This document shows positions 31,802-40,640 of a stretch of DNA of 46,208 bases, piece after piece. Location of the stretch: NCBI GenBank assembly GCA_030651475.1, contig JAUSEW010000021.1:65898-112105 (forward strand), in the 5' to 3' direction. A model generated the notes under the pieces. It was not told the DNA's origin and did no database searches. It was given only the letters and a program-made list of their open reading frames with translations. Origin of the DNA: Candidatus Levyibacteriota bacterium (GTDB lineage Bacteria > Patescibacteriota > Microgenomatia > Levybacterales > UBA12049). Position 1 is the stretch's first letter. Each line of letters begins with the position of its first letter. The translations under genes were made by a program, and so were the position numbers.

Positions 31802-32062
31802 ATGCAGCCAACAATCAAATCATCCGCAGCCAAGCGCTTAAAAATTATCGAAGGACATTTGAAAAAGGTAATAAAGATGGTTGAGAATGGCGCGTATTGT
31901 CCTGATGTTATTCAGCAGTCAACCGCAGTCCAAAGCGCTTTAAGAAAAGTTGATGAAATTTTGTTGGAGGGACATCTTAAAGATTGTGTAAGAAATGCCA
32001 TTAAATCAAGCGGGGGAGACAAGGAAATTCAAGAGCTTTTGGAAGCTTTTAGAAAGAGATAA
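31802..32062 (+). CDS. CsoR/FrmR-family metal-sensing repressor (copper-type C-H-C ligand pattern)
   Basis: RLKIIEGHLKKVIKMVENGAYCPDVIQQSTAVQSALRKVDEILLEGHLKDCV. Confidence 0.88.
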   Translation: MQPTIKSSAAKRLKIIEGHLKKVIKMVENGAYCPDVIQQSTAVQSALRKVDEILLEGHLKDCVRNAIKSSGGDKEIQELLEAFRKR

Positions 32063-32063
32063 G

Positions 32064-32564
32064 ATGGACAAAAAGGCAATAATAGGAATTCTAGTTTTTA
32101 CAGCACTTATAATAGTAGGCGCTATTTTGTTTTCCAACAATTCTCCTTCCAAAACAAGTCTTCAAAAAACCACCGGAGCAAGCATACAGACTTTCGAAAC
32201 CAGCTTTGATTTTAAAAATGTTCCATATTCAGGAGGAAATGTAGAACACCCGTTTAAAATTAAAAACTTCGGAACTGCTGATTTGACAATTGCCAATATG
32301 TCCACTTCCTGCATGTGCACCCAAGTTTTTCTCCAAAAAGGAAGTGTTATGAGTCCGAGATTTGGCATGACAGGACACGCAAGTGAAGGTGCGTGGAAGG
32401 GCGTATTAAAACCAGGAGAAGAAGCTTCAATCGTCGCAGTTTTTGATCCTACAGCTCACGGACCTTCAGGAGTTGGTCCAATATCAAGGCTCGTTAGCTT
32501 CGAGACGAATGATCCGGACCATCCTTATGTCGAATTCTCGTTTTCAGGCGTAGTGGTTAAATAA
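32064..32564 (+). CDS. DUF1573 domain protein
   Basis: SFDFKNVPYSGGNVEHPFKIKNFGTADLTIANMSTSCMCTQ. Confidence 0.8.
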   Translation: MDKKAIIGILVFTALIIVGAILFSNNSPSKTSLQKTTGASIQTFETSFDFKNVPYSGGNVEHPFKIKNFGTADLTIANMSTSCMCTQVFLQKGSVMSPRFGMTGHASEGAWKGVLKPGEEASIVAVFDPTAHGPSGVGPISRLVSFETNDPDHPYVEFSFSGVVVK

Positions 32565-33461
32565 ATGAAAAAAATACCAGTAGAGATTATTTTCGCTCTT
32601 ATTGTGCTAGCATTTTTCTTAGGTATTTTTGCAAATGAAAAGTTTTTAAATAAAGATCAGTCAGGCGTTTCAAAAACGGAAAATAAAATTGCGAATAATC
32701 TTGAAATTCTGCAAGAAAAAGTGCTTCCCAAAAACGGATATCGCTTCAAAATTAATTGGGGAATTTTGGGTAAACGGATGATTGACGACGGCGTGATAGA
32801 TAAAGTAAAACTTGCGAAAGCATTGACGGGAAAGGAAACTTTAGACGCAAATTTTGATAAATATTTGGACGGGAGCAATCAAAGAGAAATAGAATTAACG
32901 CAGGAAAACGCACAATTTTGGGTGGATGTACTTTGGGGATTTGGTCTTGCCAATAAAAACCCTATCCTTGAAACTGGACAGATGACTGAAGGAGGAAATA
33001 CTGCAAATTTTGCTTCAACAGGGGGATGGACAATAGGAGCAAAAGCGCCGATGGATTTATACAGCAAGTTTTCATACATAATTTTGTCGGAGAGCCAGCA
33101 AAAGATGGTTTCGGAAATCGCGGGAAATATTTACAGGCCTTGCTGCGGAAATTCCACTGCATTTCCGGATTGTAACCACGGAATGGCAGCTTTGGGCCTA
33201 ATTGAGCTGATGGTATCGCAGAATAAATCCAAAAATGAAATTTACAAAACAGTTTTGGCTTTTAATTCTTACTGGTTTCCGCAAACCTATCTTGATATTG
33301 CCTACCATTTTCAAAAAAGCGGACGGGATTATAGCAAAATTCCGGCTCAAGAACTCTTATCCAAGACATTTTCAAGCGCAATGGGATATGCGGTCGTAAG
33401 AAAAGAAGTGGGGAATCTTCCCTGGCCTCTTTTGCAAGGAGGAGGGAGCTGCGGAGCATAA
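32565..33461 (+). CDS. Hypothetical secreted/anchored protein with Cys/His motif
   Basis: N-terminal TM; RPCCGNSTAFPDCNHGMAALG. Confidence 0.65.
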   Translation: MKKIPVEIIFALIVLAFFLGIFANEKFLNKDQSGVSKTENKIANNLEILQEKVLPKNGYRFKINWGILGKRMIDDGVIDKVKLAKALTGKETLDANFDKYLDGSNQREIELTQENAQFWVDVLWGFGLANKNPILETGQMTEGGNTANFASTGGWTIGAKAPMDLYSKFSYIILSESQQKMVSEIAGNIYRPCCGNSTAFPDCNHGMAALGLIELMVSQNKSKNEIYKTVLAFNSYWFPQTYLDIAYHFQKSGRDYSKIPAQELLSKTFSSAMGYAVVRKEVGNLPWPLLQGGGSCGA

Positions 33462-34298
33462 ATGGATCAAATATTTTTTCAAACCTCTCTTATAGCTGCA
33501 TTTGCCGCAGGGATGGTGGCTCTTTTTGCTCCGTGCTGCATTACTTTTTTACTCCCTGCATATCTAGGGAGCGTCTTTAAGGAGAAATCAAAAATTCTTT
33601 TGGCGACTTTGGTTTTCGGTTTGGGAATATTTATAGTACTTTTGCCCGCGGTTTTGGGTGTTTCCTTGGTTTCAAAACTTCTTTTCCGCTATCACGACAC
33701 GCTTTACATTCTGGGAGGAATTATGCTATTCATAGTGGCTTTAATGTCATTTTTCGGAATAAAATTTCCAATGCCAAGATTTTCCCAGACTACCAAGAAT
33801 GGGAAGGCAGATATTATTTCTATTTTCTTACTTGGTATTTTCTCCGGAATTGCCAGTGCTTGCTGCGCGCCGGTTTTGGTTGGAATTTTGACTTTTAGCC
33901 TTCTGTCCCCGAACATATTAGGCGCAATTCTCATTGGCTTAATGTATGTTTTGGGTATGGTTTTTCCGCTTTTGCTAATTTCTATTTTTCTTTCCAAGAA
34001 AATGCCCAGCTTTTCGGCTTTCAGAAAACCAATTGCGTCTTTTAAAATCTTCGGCAAGACTTATTTTCTGTTTCTTAATAATCTTATTGCGGCAATTATA
34101 TTTTTCGCAACTTCTGTTTTGACATTTTACCTTACTTTCACAGGCAGATTGACGATGGGTAAAGCCGAAGGCATAACTTTAGCTATTCAAAATGTCGGGG
34201 CGTTTGTTAACCAATATGCCGGAGGAAGCATTCTTTTAAATATAATTTTCTTAGGTTTTGTAATTTTTATTATTTACAAGATAGCCAAAAGAGTGTAG
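33462..34298 (+). CDS. CcdA/DsbD-like transmembrane thiol-redox protein
   Basis: AAGMVALFAPCCITFLLPAYLGSVF, GIFSGIASACCAPVLVGIL, multiple TM segments. Confidence 0.8.
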   Translation: MDQIFFQTSLIAAFAAGMVALFAPCCITFLLPAYLGSVFKEKSKILLATLVFGLGIFIVLLPAVLGVSLVSKLLFRYHDTLYILGGIMLFIVALMSFFGIKFPMPRFSQTTKNGKADIISIFLLGIFSGIASACCAPVLVGILTFSLLSPNILGAILIGLMYVLGMVFPLLLISIFLSKKMPSFSAFRKPIASFKIFGKTYFLFLNNLIAAIIFFATSVLTFYLTFTGRLTMGKAEGITLAIQNVGAFVNQYAGGSILLNIIFLGFVIFIIYKIAKRV

Positions 34299-34328
34299 CC
34301 TAATAATTAGGTAAAGGGGGTGAGAAAT

Positions 34329-34475
34329 ATGATGGGATGGGGATATAGCAATATGATGAATTGGGGAACCGGCATGCCTTGGTTTGGCACCTTAGGCTTC
34401 ATCTTCTGGATAGTTGTTTTCGTAGACTTAGTTCTTTTGGGAGTTTGGCTTTGGAAACAAACACAAAAGAAATAA
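34329..34475 (+). CDS. Small Met/Trp-rich single-TM protein (48 aa), absent from the ORF track
   Basis: AAGGGGGTG RBS then MMGWGYSNMMNWGTGMPWFGTLGFIFWIVVFVDLVLLGVWLWKQTQKK*. Confidence 0.75.
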   Translation: MMGWGYSNMMNWGTGMPWFGTLGFIFWIVVFVDLVLLGVWLWKQTQKK

Positions 34476-34564
34476 AGGGTCCACCTATTCTTTCTTCTCG
34501 CCTTAGTAGATTTCTACTGCGGCTCGAAGAGCGAATTTAAGCGGGTGAAAGAGGGTGAGAAAAT

Positions 34565-35059
34565 ATGAAAGAAACATGGCTGGAAAAACTCTTATTTGGG
34601 AGCAAGTATTTTGCCTGGGTTTGGCTTATCGTGAGGGTTTATATAGGTTGGATATGGCTTCAGGCAGGACTGGAAAAAATAAAAAATCCCCTGTGGGTTG
34701 GAGAAAAAGCAGGGGTGGCGATTCAGGGATTTTTGGCGAATGCGCTGGCTAAAGCTAGCGGCGCGCATCCTGCTGTTGCGAGTTGGTACGCGGCATTTAT
34801 CAAAGATTTTGCCTTACCTAACTCAACAATTTTTTCCTATTTAGTTTCGTACGGAGAAGTAGTAGTAGGAATTGCGCTAATTCTTGGTCTTTTTACAGGA
34901 ATTGCTGCACTTTTTGGCGGGTTGATGAACTTAAACTATCTTTTAGCAGGTACTATAAGTATTAATCCTTTAATGCTGGTTGTACAAATCTTGCTGATGT
35001 TAGCATGGAGAACTGCAGGATGGTTTGGTTTAGACAGATACATAAATGCAAGACGATAA
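34565..35059 (+). CDS. DoxX/DoxD family membrane protein
   Basis: WLIVRVYIGWIWLQAGLEKI, GEVVVGIALILGLFTGIAALFGGLMNLNYLLAG. Confidence 0.85.
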   Translation: MKETWLEKLLFGSKYFAWVWLIVRVYIGWIWLQAGLEKIKNPLWVGEKAGVAIQGFLANALAKASGAHPAVASWYAAFIKDFALPNSTIFSYLVSYGEVVVGIALILGLFTGIAALFGGLMNLNYLLAGTISINPLMLVVQILLMLAWRTAGWFGLDRYINARR

Positions 35060-37241
35060 CCAAGAAAAGACGCTATATACATGTCCCATGGATCCTGACG
35101 TAATTACGGATAAGCCTGGCACTTGTCCTAAGTGCGGAATGAGGCTTGTTGAGACAGATCACCGGATGAAAAAACCGGAAGAAATGTCATGGTTTGAAAA
35201 ATTTAAAATGAGCATGACAATGAGTATGGGAATGGAACATACAGGCCTTGCAGGACGGGAAATGGCAAGACTTATGGAAGAAGATATTAGGCAAAAGTTC
35301 TTTTTCTCTCTGTTTCTATCAATCCCTATTATTGCTTACTCACCTTTGGGAGAAAAAATTTTGGGCATAAACCTTCCCCAACCTATTCCAAGCGCTTGGA
35401 TACTTTTTATACTCACAACACCTGTTTTTTTCTATTCCGGCTGGATATTTCTGTATTCCACTTTTAAAGCTCTGCAGCAAAAAACTTTAAACATGGCTGT
35501 TTTAATTGCCGTTGGAATAACAGCTGCTTATGCTTTCAGTATTTTACTTACTTTTTTAGGAAGCAACGATTCTTATTACGAAGCCGCGGCTCTTCTTATA
35601 ACTTTTGTTCTGTTCGGACATTGGATGGAAATGAAATCCAGACGCGGTACAACCGATGCCTTGCAGGCGCTTTTTAATCTCGTTCCTCCGCAGGCAAGAA
35701 TTTTAAAAAACGGAAAAGAAGTTTTAGTTTCAACCTCGGAAATTGTAGTTGGAGATATCGTTATCCTGAAGCCCGGCGATAAAATTCCCGTTGACGGAGA
35801 AATAATAGAAGGAGAAACGGCAATAGACGAGTCTTTAGTAACAGGAGAGTCTCTTCCTGTTGCAAAGAAAATAGGAGATAAGGTTATTGGAGGTTCTATT
35901 AATACATCGGGTTCAGTCAAATTTAAAGCAACAAAAATCGGCGAAGATACTGCTCTTGCGCAGATTGTAAAACTGGTTGAAACAGCTCAAAACTCAAAAG
36001 CCCCCGGGCAAAAAATTGCAGATAGGTTTGCCAAATATCTTGTTATTGTGGCTGTTGGAGGAGGATTGATTACTTTCGTTGTATGGTTTTTCCTTTTGGG
36101 GCAGCCTTTAATTTTTGCTCTTACTTTTGCCATATCAACAGTTGTTATTGCCTGTCCTGACGCCTTGGGACTTGCAACCCCTACCGCAGTTGCCGTTGGA
36201 ACAGGCCTTGGCGCAAAACACAATATTCTTATTAAAGATGCCCCTACTCTTGAAGGCGTTTCAAAAATACAGGCAATAGTTTTGGATAAAACAGGTACTT
36301 TGACCCAAGGAAAACCCGAAATTACCGATGTAATTGCTGCAAGAGGATTTAGTGAAGACAAAATTATTGAACTTAATGCCGCTGTTGAGGCCAAATCATC
36401 TCATCCGCTAAGTCAGGCAGTTTTAGAAGAAGCCAAGAAAAGAAACTTAACTATTCCAACTAGAGTAGAAGGATTTAAAAATCTTGCAGGACATGGAGTT
36501 GAAGCGCAAGTTTCAGGAAAGCACGTTCTTGTCGGAACAATAAAACTTATGAATGACAGAAAAGTGGACACTAAACCTTTGATAAAAGAAATCAACAGGT
36601 TGCTTTCAGAAGGGAAAACAATTATGGTTTTGGCAATTGATGGGAAAATTGCAGGAGTAGCAGCAGCCCTTGATCCAATAAAAGAAAATGCAAAAACAGC
36701 AATTCTTAAAATGAAAGAATTAGGACTTGAAGTGGTGATGATTACCGGAGATAACAAAAAAACAGGGGAATTAATTGGTAAACAACTTGAAATAGATAGG
36801 GTGTTTGCCGAAGTTTTGCCGGAAGATAAAGAAAAATATGTTAAAAAACTTCAGGATGAGGGAAAGTTCGTGGCAATGGTAGGGGATGGGGTGAACGACG
36901 CGCCTGCTCTTGCGAGGTCTGATATAGGTATTGCTATTGGCGCAGGAACAGATGTAGCCATAGAAACCGCAAAAATTGTTTTAATGAAATCCGACCCATT
37001 AGACATATTAAGGGCAATAAAGCTTTCCAAAGCAACTGTTAGGAAAATGAAAGAAAACCTTTTCTGGGCTTCTATTTACAATCTTTTGGCAATTCCTATT
37101 GCTGCAGGGGTTTTATATCCGGCATTTAAAATTTCTTTAAGACCGGAAATAGCAGCTCTTTTAATGAGTATGTCTTCAATTATAGTCGCAGTAAATGCAG
37201 TTTTGCTAAAGAGGGTGGAAAAAGATTTGGTTGAGGTTTAG
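35046..37241 (+). CDS. Heavy-metal (probably copper) translocating P1B-type ATPase with N-terminal metal-binding domain; variant CPD motif
   Basis: YTCPMDPDVITDKPGTCPKCGMRL, IACPDALGLATP, DKTGTLTQGKPE, MVGDGVNDAPALARSDIGIAIGAGTD. Confidence 0.92.
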   Translation: MQDDNQEKTLYTCPMDPDVITDKPGTCPKCGMRLVETDHRMKKPEEMSWFEKFKMSMTMSMGMEHTGLAGREMARLMEEDIRQKFFFSLFLSIPIIAYSPLGEKILGINLPQPIPSAWILFILTTPVFFYSGWIFLYSTFKALQQKTLNMAVLIAVGITAAYAFSILLTFLGSNDSYYEAAALLITFVLFGHWMEMKSRRGTTDALQALFNLVPPQARILKNGKEVLVSTSEIVVGDIVILKPGDKIPVDGEIIEGETAIDESLVTGESLPVAKKIGDKVIGGSINTSGSVKFKATKIGEDTALAQIVKLVETAQNSKAPGQKIADRFAKYLVIVAVGGGLITFVVWFFLLGQPLIFALTFAISTVVIACPDALGLATPTAVAVGTGLGAKHNILIKDAPTLEGVSKIQAIVLDKTGTLTQGKPEITDVIAARGFSEDKIIELNAAVEAKSSHPLSQAVLEEAKKRNLTIPTRVEGFKNLAGHGVEAQVSGKHVLVGTIKLMNDRKVDTKPLIKEINRLLSEGKTIMVLAIDGKIAGVAAALDPIKENAKTAILKMKELGLEVVMITGDNKKTGELIGKQLEIDRVFAEVLPEDKEKYVKKLQDEGKFVAMVGDGVNDAPALARSDIGIAIGAGTDVAIETAKIVLMKSDPLDILRAIKLSKATVRKMKENLFWASIYNLLAIPIAAGVLYPAFKISLRPEIAALLMSMSSIIVAVNAVLLKRVEKDLVEV

Positions 37242-37258
37242 CTAAGGGAGGTGATTTT

Positions 37259-37450
37259 ATGTTTGGACTTTTTGGAAAAGTTACAGACCCAGTTTGCAAA
37301 ATGGGAATAAATAAAAAGGAGGCAAAATTTTCTTCCGAAAGCAAAGGAAATATGTATTATTTTTGCTCACAAAACTGCAAGGATAAATTTGGAACCGATC
37401 CTAAAAAATATGCTGTTGAAGAAACCAAAAGCGAAGAATGCTGCCATTAA
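37259..37450 (+). CDS. YHS domain protein
   Basis: DPVCKMGINKKEAKFSSESKGNMYYFCSQNCKDKFGTDPKKY. Confidence 0.88.
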   Translation: MFGLFGKVTDPVCKMGINKKEAKFSSESKGNMYYFCSQNCKDKFGTDPKKYAVEETKSEECCH

Positions 37451-38192: not shown

Positions 38193-39623
38193 ATGAGTAA
38201 GGAGTTTAATCCCGTAACTCAAGGTCTGCTTGACATACAACATTCCCCACAACTTTTTCCATCTACGCATATAGAAAATGTTCCGCCCAAAGACTTATAT
38301 AAGACGTTATCTGCTCCTCTTGATGTCCAGGTGGAAGTGACTACCCTGTGTAATGAAGCATGCGTACATTGTTATAACTTTTGGCGAGGAGCAAAGTTCA
38401 AAGGGGTTGCCAATAATCTTCCCGATACCACACTAGGAAAAGATAAAGTTCTAGTAATAATGGATCAATTGGTCAAAAGCCAAGTTTTTAGGGTAACTTT
38501 TACCGGGGGAGAGCCTTTTCTTTTCAGAGATGCAGTTACTGAAGGAGTAAGATTTGCAAAAAAAGCAGGACTTGATTGTTCTTTAAATAGTAATCTTACC
38601 GTAATTACCAGAAAGGACGCAGAATCTCTTAAAGAGGCGGGACTTGATTCCGTATTAACCTCGCTCCATTCTTTTGATGAGGAGACCCATGATGAAATAA
38701 CCCAAAGAAGAGGATCTTTTGGGCGTACTCTGCGGGGAATAAAAATTTGTCGAGATGCAGGACTAGATGTCGGAGTAAATATGGTAGTAATGCAAACAAA
38801 TCAAGAGCAGGTTTTTGAGACAGGGAAATTTGTTAAAGAGCTAGGAGTAAGATCATTTTCTGCCACAAAAGCTGCTCCTTGTCTAGGCGGAACTAATTTT
38901 TCAGAAGTTGGTATTGATAAAAACGCATTCAAGAAAATGATTGCAGATTTAATTCTTTTAGAAAAAACGTTTGGAATAAATGTTGACACCCTAATGGCTT
39001 ATCCTCTTTGTGCCCTGGGAGATGTAGATCGTTTTAAGAAATTTGCTCAACACAGCTGCGGAGCAGGGATTACAACCTGCACTATAGGTTCAAGAGGCGA
39101 TGTTAGACCATGTTCTTTTTCGGATGAGACTTACGGAAATATATTTTCCGATTCACTTCCTCAAATATGGAAAGGAATGAAAGACTGGCGGGACGGAAGC
39201 CGTCTGCCAAAAAACTGCGTTGATAACTGTAAATATTTTTCTCAATGCGGTGGAGGATGCAGAATGGAAGCGAAATTTGCTGGAGACAAGGTAGGAATGG
39301 ATCCGTTAGCTACGGGACCTTTAGATGTTGTTTCCTTGCCTGTTTCTGACTTAAATCCTTCTCCATCCGATTTTTGGGAGAGGCGACTTATTGTTACTCC
39401 TAATCTTAGACTAAGGAGGGAAAATTTCGGAGGAATTATAGCACCACAAGGCCGCCAACCAGTTCTTGTTGACAGTGCCGCCTACGAAATTATTGACAGA
39501 TTAAAAAACTCATCATCACCATTTTCTTTTAAGGGAATTGAACCTGATTTTAATCTATCGCAAGCTTCATCTGATTTCTTTTTTGCGCTCTTTACAAAAG
39601 AGTTTTTTAGAGAAGTTCAATGA
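38193..39623 (+). CDS. Radical SAM/SPASM peptide-modifying enzyme with C-terminal PqqD/RRE-like tail
   Basis: VTTLCNEACVHCYNFW (CxxxCxxC), FTGGEPFLF, SPASM-like cysteines CTIGSRGDVRPCSFSDETYGNIF...NCVDNCKYFSQCGGGCR. Confidence 0.85.
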   Translation: MSKEFNPVTQGLLDIQHSPQLFPSTHIENVPPKDLYKTLSAPLDVQVEVTTLCNEACVHCYNFWRGAKFKGVANNLPDTTLGKDKVLVIMDQLVKSQVFRVTFTGGEPFLFRDAVTEGVRFAKKAGLDCSLNSNLTVITRKDAESLKEAGLDSVLTSLHSFDEETHDEITQRRGSFGRTLRGIKICRDAGLDVGVNMVVMQTNQEQVFETGKFVKELGVRSFSATKAAPCLGGTNFSEVGIDKNAFKKMIADLILLEKTFGINVDTLMAYPLCALGDVDRFKKFAQHSCGAGITTCTIGSRGDVRPCSFSDETYGNIFSDSLPQIWKGMKDWRDGSRLPKNCVDNCKYFSQCGGGCRMEAKFAGDKVGMDPLATGPLDVVSLPVSDLNPSPSDFWERRLIVTPNLRLRRENFGGIIAPQGRQPVLVDSAAYEIIDRLKNSSSPFSFKGIEPDFNLSQASSDFFFALFTKEFFREVQ

Positions 39624-40354
39624 GTAAGGATATAAACTTAGAGAAGAATTTAATAAGCGTAGAATTAGGACCTCAAGCAAAAGGTTTTGTTTCTTTTCTT
39701 GCAAAAGACCCAAGTCTAAATAGGGTTATCAAAGATTTTAGATATGGTTATACTCGAGCCTCAAGTTTTTTTAAAAAGAAAATTCCCAAAATAAAACTCA
39801 CTCTTGTCTATAGCCGAGAGGAAATGAATAATTTAATTGGACATAAAACACCCAGTTGGTTTGTCGGATACGCAGATTCTTCTAGTAAAATATTCATGTT
39901 TAGTCCATCTGTTTTTGATAGAGAAAGCAATCATAACAAAAGAGATTTTAGAAAGGTTCTTTGCCACGAAATCTGCCATTTATTTATTCGGAAAATTCAC
40001 AACTCTTATGAACCTGTATGGCTTGAGGAAGGACTCGCTTATTATGCGGCAGGTCAAAAAAGCAGGTTGAAAGATAACAACCCTATTTTTAATAATCCGA
40101 AAGTTTTATTTTTCATAGACACGAGGAAACGATGGGATAAAACTATTGTTAGTCAGCCTGATGTACCGTATGCATTAGCGTTTTTGCTGGTAGACTTTTT
40201 GATTAGGTGTTATAGTAAAGACAGGGTTATTAAACTTTTAATGTCTCTGGGGGACAGATATAGCAAAAAGATTTTTTGTCAAAAATTTAGAAAGCTTTAT
40301 GGAAAAGATATAGAAGTAATCTTGAAGGAATTTTTTTCTAGACAGAATGAATAG
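39620..40354 (+). CDS. Gluzincin-like metallopeptidase
   Basis: KVLCHEICHLFIRKIHNSYEPVWLEEGLAYY (HExxH...E). Confidence 0.75.
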   Translation: MSKDINLEKNLISVELGPQAKGFVSFLAKDPSLNRVIKDFRYGYTRASSFFKKKIPKIKLTLVYSREEMNNLIGHKTPSWFVGYADSSSKIFMFSPSVFDRESNHNKRDFRKVLCHEICHLFIRKIHNSYEPVWLEEGLAYYAAGQKSRLKDNNPIFNNPKVLFFIDTRKRWDKTIVSQPDVPYALAFLLVDFLIRCYSKDRVIKLLMSLGDRYSKKIFCQKFRKLYGKDIEVILKEFFSRQNE

Positions 40355-40370
40355 AGAGGAGGTGAAAATT

Positions 40371-40640
40371 ATGTCTCCAGAAATTAGAGTAACGCCTAAG
40401 GATGCAAGTGTGGTGCCTCAATTCGTATCAATATTAAATAGTAAAGGATTGGAGCCGTTTGTAGGAGCAGGCAAAAACTGTATTAGTCCTAATCCCCCTT
40501 TACCTCCACCTTGTTTCGGTAAACCACCACCGCCTTGCGTTGGTAGACCGCCCCCGCCTTGCTATGGCGGTTGCTATGGAGGAAGAGGCGAGATAGAGCA
40601 AAGTCCTGTGAAAGGAAAAACGAGTAAAGTGTCTGGGTAG
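40371..40640 (+). CDS. Candidate RiPP precursor peptide (89 aa), Pro/Cys repeat core
   Basis: GAGGAGGTG RBS before ATG 40371; PPLPPPCFGKPPPPCVGRPPPPCYGGCYGGRG. Confidence 0.8.
   Translation: MSPEIRVTPKDASVVPQFVSILNSKGLEPFVGAGKNCISPNPPLPPPCFGKPPPPCVGRPPPPCYGGCYGGRGEIEQSPVKGKTSKVSG

Follow-up and report, generated by a model that had tools for sequence, protein, structure and literature searches.

The window, that is, the whole stretch of 46,208 nucleotides analysed here, contains three consecutive forward-strand genes that encode a radical SAM/SPASM enzyme (38193..39623), an HExxH metallopeptidase (39620..40354) and a putative precursor peptide (P0001, 40371..40640); the first two genes overlap by 4 bases. 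The enzyme has 476 amino acid residues and matches PF04055 (6e-27) and PF13186 (5e-6). In the alignment, Cys53, Cys57 and Cys60 make up the CxxxCxxC motif of the radical SAM cluster (38349..38372), and six SPASM cysteines are found at residues 289, 307, 342, 346, 352 and 356 (39057..39260). Both sets are invariant or nearly so across the aligned enzymes, as in a maturase, with the exception of the enzyme of locus L011, which has no SPASM domain. In this Daviesbacteria enzyme (L011:7986-9116) the whole domain, about 75 residues between KFA-like sequences, is missing in frame, which may reflect either a genuine loss or a fault in the assembly; the peptidase and precursor of the locus look intact despite it.

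The last 85 residues of the window enzyme (392-476; 39366..39620) show a beta-beta-beta-beta-alpha-alpha-alpha topology in a low-confidence structure model (pLDDT 58), and this C-terminal domain may be RRE/PqqD-like by its resemblance in fold; Pfam and hhalign gave no support for an RRE in the enzyme. Its nearest named relative belongs to a Levybacteria MAG, while the best solved relative is SkfB (6efn), both by profile (E 5.9e-22) and at the top of the fold search made with the same model. All NCBIfam equivalogs were far below their cut-offs, with bit scores of 60.8 for SkfB (cut-off 300), 80.6 for AlbA (850), 82 for StsB (625) and 62.7 for ACGX (400); the enzyme thus matches no named sactipeptide equivalog, and its assignment to any of the named radical SAM peptide systems was rejected. 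The window's own genome, of 0.91 Mb, has only two Radical_SAM matches.

The metallopeptidase has 244 residues and belongs to the Peptidase MA superfamily (PF13485, 7.6e-9), and its predicted model resembles, with moderate confidence, the gluzincin (M1/M61) aminopeptidases. The zinc site HEICH-x16-E (H116, H120 and E137; 39965..40030) is kept in distant homologues, and HExxH...WLxEG (W-x-x-EG) is conserved in the peptidase relatives, in each case where the ORF covers the site. M1 and M61 metalloproteases carry out leader removal or core processing in lanthipeptide pathways (PMC10885120). Several relatives of the window peptidase have no enzyme nearby, and no plasmid or viral homologues were found.

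Putative precursor peptide and its homologues

The third gene encodes 89 residues, and its start is best placed at the ATG at 40371, behind the strong Shine-Dalgarno site AGGAGGTGA (40357..40365), such a site being present in all homologues; an alternative upstream ATG at 40347 gives a longer ORF that overlaps the peptidase gene. The leader (residues 1-41; 40371..40493) carries the conserved sequence DxSVVPQFVSILN.KGLE, and the core (40494..40586) consists of proline-rich C-[FVY]-G units with cysteines at residues 48, 56, 64 and 68. A C-terminal tail of 17 residues (73-89; 40587..40637) is found only in the window copy. The proteins of its close relatives end with the core, in CYGGR*, CYGR* or CYGG*, and by this comparison the tail apparently arose by loss of the stop codon.

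A preliminary description of this DNA had reported an octapeptide repeat core, and the repeat is real: positions 40494-40589 (+) encode residues 42-73, PPLPPPCFGK-PPPPCVGR-PPPPCYGG-CYGGRG, letter for letter as it was given. True octapeptides are limited to two units, and the fourth unit has no prolines. When the 89 residues were shuffled 200,000 times, a maximum of two P-C-[FVYI]-[GD] motifs was obtained and never three. Furthermore, the units now differ in their codons and the motif is kept in the homologues, with the exception of the divergent L010, so the repeats are due neither to chance nor to recent DNA duplication. Translation of four-proline runs, which are present in the precursor (40371-40640), usually requires EF-P; an EF-P gene is found in the window's genome.

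Homologous peptides were found in six other Patescibacteria genomes: L008 (G040), L009 (Levybacteria), L011 (Daviesbacteria), L003 (G070), L004 (G023) and the divergent L010. With L010 set aside, the leader sequences hardly differ around SKDxSVVPQFVSILNxKGLE. The cores differ in length and spacing and contain three to five P-rich-C-[V/F/I/Y]-[G/D]-x units, with V, F or I in the first units and Y in the last. Nine of the 24 core units have V or I in place of an aromatic residue, and the aromatic residue in every unit that characterizes triceptides is therefore absent.

The same alignment, which the preliminary description had proposed as a check on its multi-core precursor, upholds one part of that idea and not the other. 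The conserved leader, the varying number and spacing of units and the gene linkage bear out a precursor that has repeated cores and is tied to the enzyme; however, the suggested processing at K or R is not borne out, because just half or so of the units have one of these residues after C-x-G, the others having T, E, M, S or G (T, T, E and E in L003, whose single R is terminal). Cutting out individual cores at K/R is thus no conserved design. Homologues without the repeats, which had been named as evidence against the proposal, exist in a mild form, since the cores of distant enzyme relatives are rich in Cys and Asp and have no proline repeats; this makes the repeats a feature of one clade and does not by itself make the RiPP reading wrong.

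Between the window and three relatives, dN/dS is about 0.14-0.19 across the precursor, with pS of 0.46-0.55 and pN of about 0.12. Silent codon changes predominate, and the protein sequence is thus under selection. The peptide also has the features of RiPP precursors, namely a conserved leader with a variable core and a conserved linkage to a modifying enzyme. In L010 (653-2009) the enzyme gene is frameshifted, and the adjoining precursor has a tail and no proline repeats (CITPAPCQACYVGCVGC), with a transposase-like gene after it; this cassette is possibly decaying or intermediate. Weaker precursor matches were rejected: G029 and G052 show no Cys-rich leader/core ORF, the G004 match has a low score and stops, and G185 has neither peptidase nor enzyme of the family nearby.

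Gene cassette and its relatives across Patescibacteria

The order enzyme-peptidase-precursor is identical in the window, L008, L009, L010 and L011, and peptidase and precursor are kept together up to the contig ends in L004/L065 and L003/L064, with the end of the enzyme gene also present in L004. In G023, a truncated radical SAM-like ORF lies immediately 3' of the precursor (L065:14387-15280). No exporter or immunity gene was recognisable beside the cassette in the ORFs read. The surroundings vary and comprise copper genes (window and L008), unrelated genes (L009 and L011) or a transposase-like gene (L010). In the window, a metal-handling island (31802-37450) encodes a CsoR-type repressor, a DsbD-like protein, a DoxX/HvfX-like protein, a P-type ATPase with a heavy-metal-binding domain and a YHS protein. 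The genes at 37389 and 40689 bracket the window cassette; their homologues in L008 (60 and 41% identity) adjoin each other and the L008 cassette is located elsewhere, so the copper island of the window appears to have received the cassette by insertion. The window peptidase is 82% identical to that of G070, which belongs to another family, over the available fragment, compared with 59% for FtsH, the main marker; the value for Tgt is 34%, but this gene is possibly not the true orthologue. As the cassette identity exceeds that of FtsH, the cassette probably moved as a unit, and lateral transfer offers the simplest reading of these comparisons.

Profile searches with the enzyme and the peptidase were extended to 384 genomes drawn across the phylum Patescibacteria. 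The enzyme profile matched 11 genomes and the peptidase profile 24; both were found in seven, against 0.69 expected (Fisher 4e-7). The two genes are adjacent in six of these seven, and in G562 about 11 kb of a single contig separates them. All adjacent pairs, as well as three enzyme relatives without the peptidase, have a Cys-rich mini-ORF close by, nearly always preceded by a clear Shine-Dalgarno site. A script detected such an SD-led mini-ORF after eight of the 11 enzyme genes, and a ninth (L059) was recognised by eye. The nine (L012, L049, L056, L058, L059, L063, L077, L078 and L079) lie within a few hundred bases 3' of the enzyme, the enzymes of G562 (L080) and G757 (L081) being the exceptions. 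As a control, the script matched 22 of 492 other gene entries, nearly all of which were duplicates or precursors of the same family, while YHS proteins and a single unrelated ORF made up the remainder; Cys-rich mini-ORFs beside unrelated genes are very rare.

Examples of the encoded peptides are CDSCQCVSCNSCDNSC (L012), CDVGKCDCVQCDCD (L049, with two further CD-rich ORFs), CYCHCACACHVTG (L077) and CEDCDCYDCVCQCDYC (L078). Cysteine is the common residue of the cores of these distant relatives. Some leaders share the stretch F/Y-V-S-[I/L]-L (QFVSILN in the window, GFVSILV in L049 and GYVSLLI in L077), which could plausibly be a recognition strand. An enzyme relative from Epsilonproteobacteria (L013) was rejected, as it lies in a sugar locus with neither a Cys-rich peptide nor the peptidase alongside.

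Several of these loci show further particularities. In L049 (4997-6997) one enzyme-peptidase pair is surrounded by three different Cys/Asp-rich small ORFs, which suggests several precursors for one enzyme. In L058 (6867-9346) a second system adjoins the first; it encodes a further HExxH peptidase, a 62-aa peptide rich in (CD)n, and a radical SAM enzyme that is PapB-like (119 bits, below cut-off) and has an N-terminal RRE-like part. The enzyme and/or the peptidase are inserted in the S10 ribosomal-protein operon, after rplB, in L012 (4427-7298) and L044 (5120-8373), and in the latter the peptidase is kept, the enzyme is absent and a REP-type transposase-like ORF is present. Possibly related proteins adjoin the cassettes at L049:5335-5985, L056:2750-3517, L070:5024-7289, L078:1970-2851 and L079:314-1252; the two tested had no Pfam match, and these proteins are perhaps a second accessory family.

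Known systems, competing explanations and proposed pathway

The nearest known systems each share some traits with the window cassette. As here, the SkfB/sporulation killing factor system (a sactipeptide) combines a radical SAM enzyme that has an auxiliary-cluster domain with cysteines in the core; however, the RRE of SkfB is N-terminal and is accompanied by a twitch domain (PMC8172795), whereas the window enzyme has a putative RRE-like domain at the C-terminus and a fuller SPASM set, and the core here is a Pro-Cys repeat. The freyrasin/PapB ranthipeptides also show repeated Cys motifs on one precursor with a radical SAM/SPASM enzyme, and Cys/Asp-rich cores are a PapB-like trait of the distant relatives. 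PapB links Cys to Asp or Glu in CX3D/E motifs (PMC9413430); with neither residue present, the window core falls outside this definition, and the 25 best matches of the window enzyme do not include the PapB model. Targets of the SCIFF, CXXX-repeat and ACGX types are likewise small Cys-rich precursors encoded next to a SPASM maturase, but none of the precursors tested matched an NCBIfam family above cut-off. Gluzincin RiPP proteases (AplP, and MfuP of M61) likewise are HExxH...E zinc peptidases of M1/M61-like fold encoded beside a RiPP precursor; in contrast, the window peptidase is a small single-domain protein that matches Peptidase MA (PF13485) and does not reach the cut-off of M1 (PF01433).

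Bufferins and methanobactins resemble the window peptide in their Cys-containing core, and copper genes lie near the window cassette. They bear on the possibility that the peptide is a modified ligand of copper or another soft metal, in which the C-x-G thiols, modified or not, would chelate Cu(I) and the cassette would form part of a copper-handling island. Four to five cysteines separated by prolines might well coordinate soft metals, the window cassette follows closely on the genes for the CsoR-type repressor, heavy-metal P-type ATPase, YHS and DoxX/HvfX-like proteins, and CsoR and YHS genes are also upstream in L008. However, this neighbourhood occurs in only two of the four informative loci (window and L008) and is thus not conserved, no recognisable metal genes are present in the upstream stretch read in L009 and L011, the window cassette looks like an insertion into the copper island when compared with L008, and the stretches read around the distant family members show no link with copper genes. 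Moreover, bufferins and methanobactins need an MNIO enzyme (DUF692), whereas the modifying enzyme here is a radical SAM protein and the window's own genome has no match to MNIO (PF05114), which rules out an MNIO-type copper RiPP. We consider a metal-binding role, which the preliminary description had also raised, unlikely.

Alternatively, the peptide might stay unmodified and have nothing to do with the enzyme, acting as a Pro/Cys-rich component of structure, envelope or regulation, or else as a propeptide or inhibitor of the adjacent peptidase. Proline-rich low-complexity peptides are often structural, and in the window clade the precursor gene directly follows the peptidase and not the enzyme. 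Nevertheless, no signal peptide is evident by eye, the Cys-rich ORF lies directly after the enzyme and before the peptidase in L012, L049, L056, L058, L059 and L063, and in L077-L079 it follows the enzyme with no adjacent peptidase of this family. The enzyme is therefore the constant partner, and a peptide unrelated to it appears highly improbable. Another reading accepts modification with a different chemistry, such as C-C or C-O crosslinks on Tyr, Phe or Val next to Cys, Pro-centred oxidation, or a redox cofactor made from the C-terminal CYG (PQQ- or mycofactocin-like, decarboxylated or crosslinked). The enzyme scores for NirJ2, GeoRSP, PqqE, mycofactocin and WgkB are all below cut-off, so that no single chemistry is favoured, and the last units always have Tyr where the first have V, F or I. 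Against it, no unit has lost its Cys, the residue that is also common to the cores of the distant relatives, and the units with V or I, which have no aromatic residue, argue against an aromatic-centred cyclophane per unit. On balance such chemistry seems rather unlikely.

We favour, with moderate confidence, the reading of the window ORF as a RiPP precursor in which the C-x-G units are modified by the SPASM enzyme, most likely to thioethers, and the leader is removed by the peptidase. The leader/core anatomy, the variation in repeat number, the conserved three-gene cassette and the enzyme motifs are all seen at the sequence level, and the homologue anatomy, the recurrence of the cassette and the Cys-rich mini-ORFs together point to a new, unnamed radical SAM RiPP family, of which the window represents a Pro-Cys clade. 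The radical SAM/SPASM enzyme would bind the conserved leader, probably by means of the putative RRE-like domain at its C-terminus, and would then proceed along the core and modify every C-[V/F/Y/I]-G unit. The pairing of the enzyme with this precursor as its substrate is highly probable. Much as in sactipeptides or ranthipeptides, the likeliest bond would be a thioether that joins the sulphur of Cys with a carbon in a residue close to it, although thioether chemistry as such is plausible rather than probable. The product would have several small rings kept apart by stiff polyproline segments. Removal of the leader by the HExxH gluzincin-type peptidase is likely. The small cyclised peptide may serve in interactions with neighbouring cells, a role that we put forward tentatively.

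Ranthipeptide enzymes use acceptors such as Asp, Glu and Thr. The window core has none of the three, and among the homologues C-[IV]-D occurs in L008 and L009. This lack counts against the proposed pathway, as do the missing SPASM domain in L011, the negative Pfam and hhalign results for the RRE, the peptidase relatives that have no enzyme nearby and the absence of a recognisable exporter or immunity gene beside the cassette in the ORFs read. Gly is a known sactionine acceptor, as in the Cys31-Gly34 bond of one peptide (PMC8172795), which makes the C-x-G units candidate sites. As the Pro-Cys core has no usual acceptor residues, the enzyme may carry out chemistry not yet described. At its widest, the proposal is that Patescibacteria have a new class of radical SAM RiPPs: within polyproline-spaced units, a single enzyme would iteratively join Cys with a carbon of a neighbouring Val, Phe, Tyr, Gly or Pro, so that a series of small thioether rings is set on a rigid rod, and the three-gene cassette would have spread between host-dependent ultrasmall lineages; we regard this as possible, though somewhat short of probable.

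Patescibacteria have tiny genomes that are usually scored poor in natural-product genes, and the bacterium of the window is probably host-dependent. No description of the family was found in the portions of the literature covered by our search, and one survey reported no BGCs in its Patescibacteria MAGs (PMC11613949). The novelty lies in the unusual Pro-Cys core of an apparent radical SAM RiPP cassette that belongs to an unnamed family of Patescibacteria. A genome of 0.91 Mb devotes one of its two Radical_SAM matches to an apparent peptide maturase, and the recurring cassette of enzyme, Cys-rich peptide and peptidase offers a testable route to the products that epibionts may use for contact with their hosts or neighbours.
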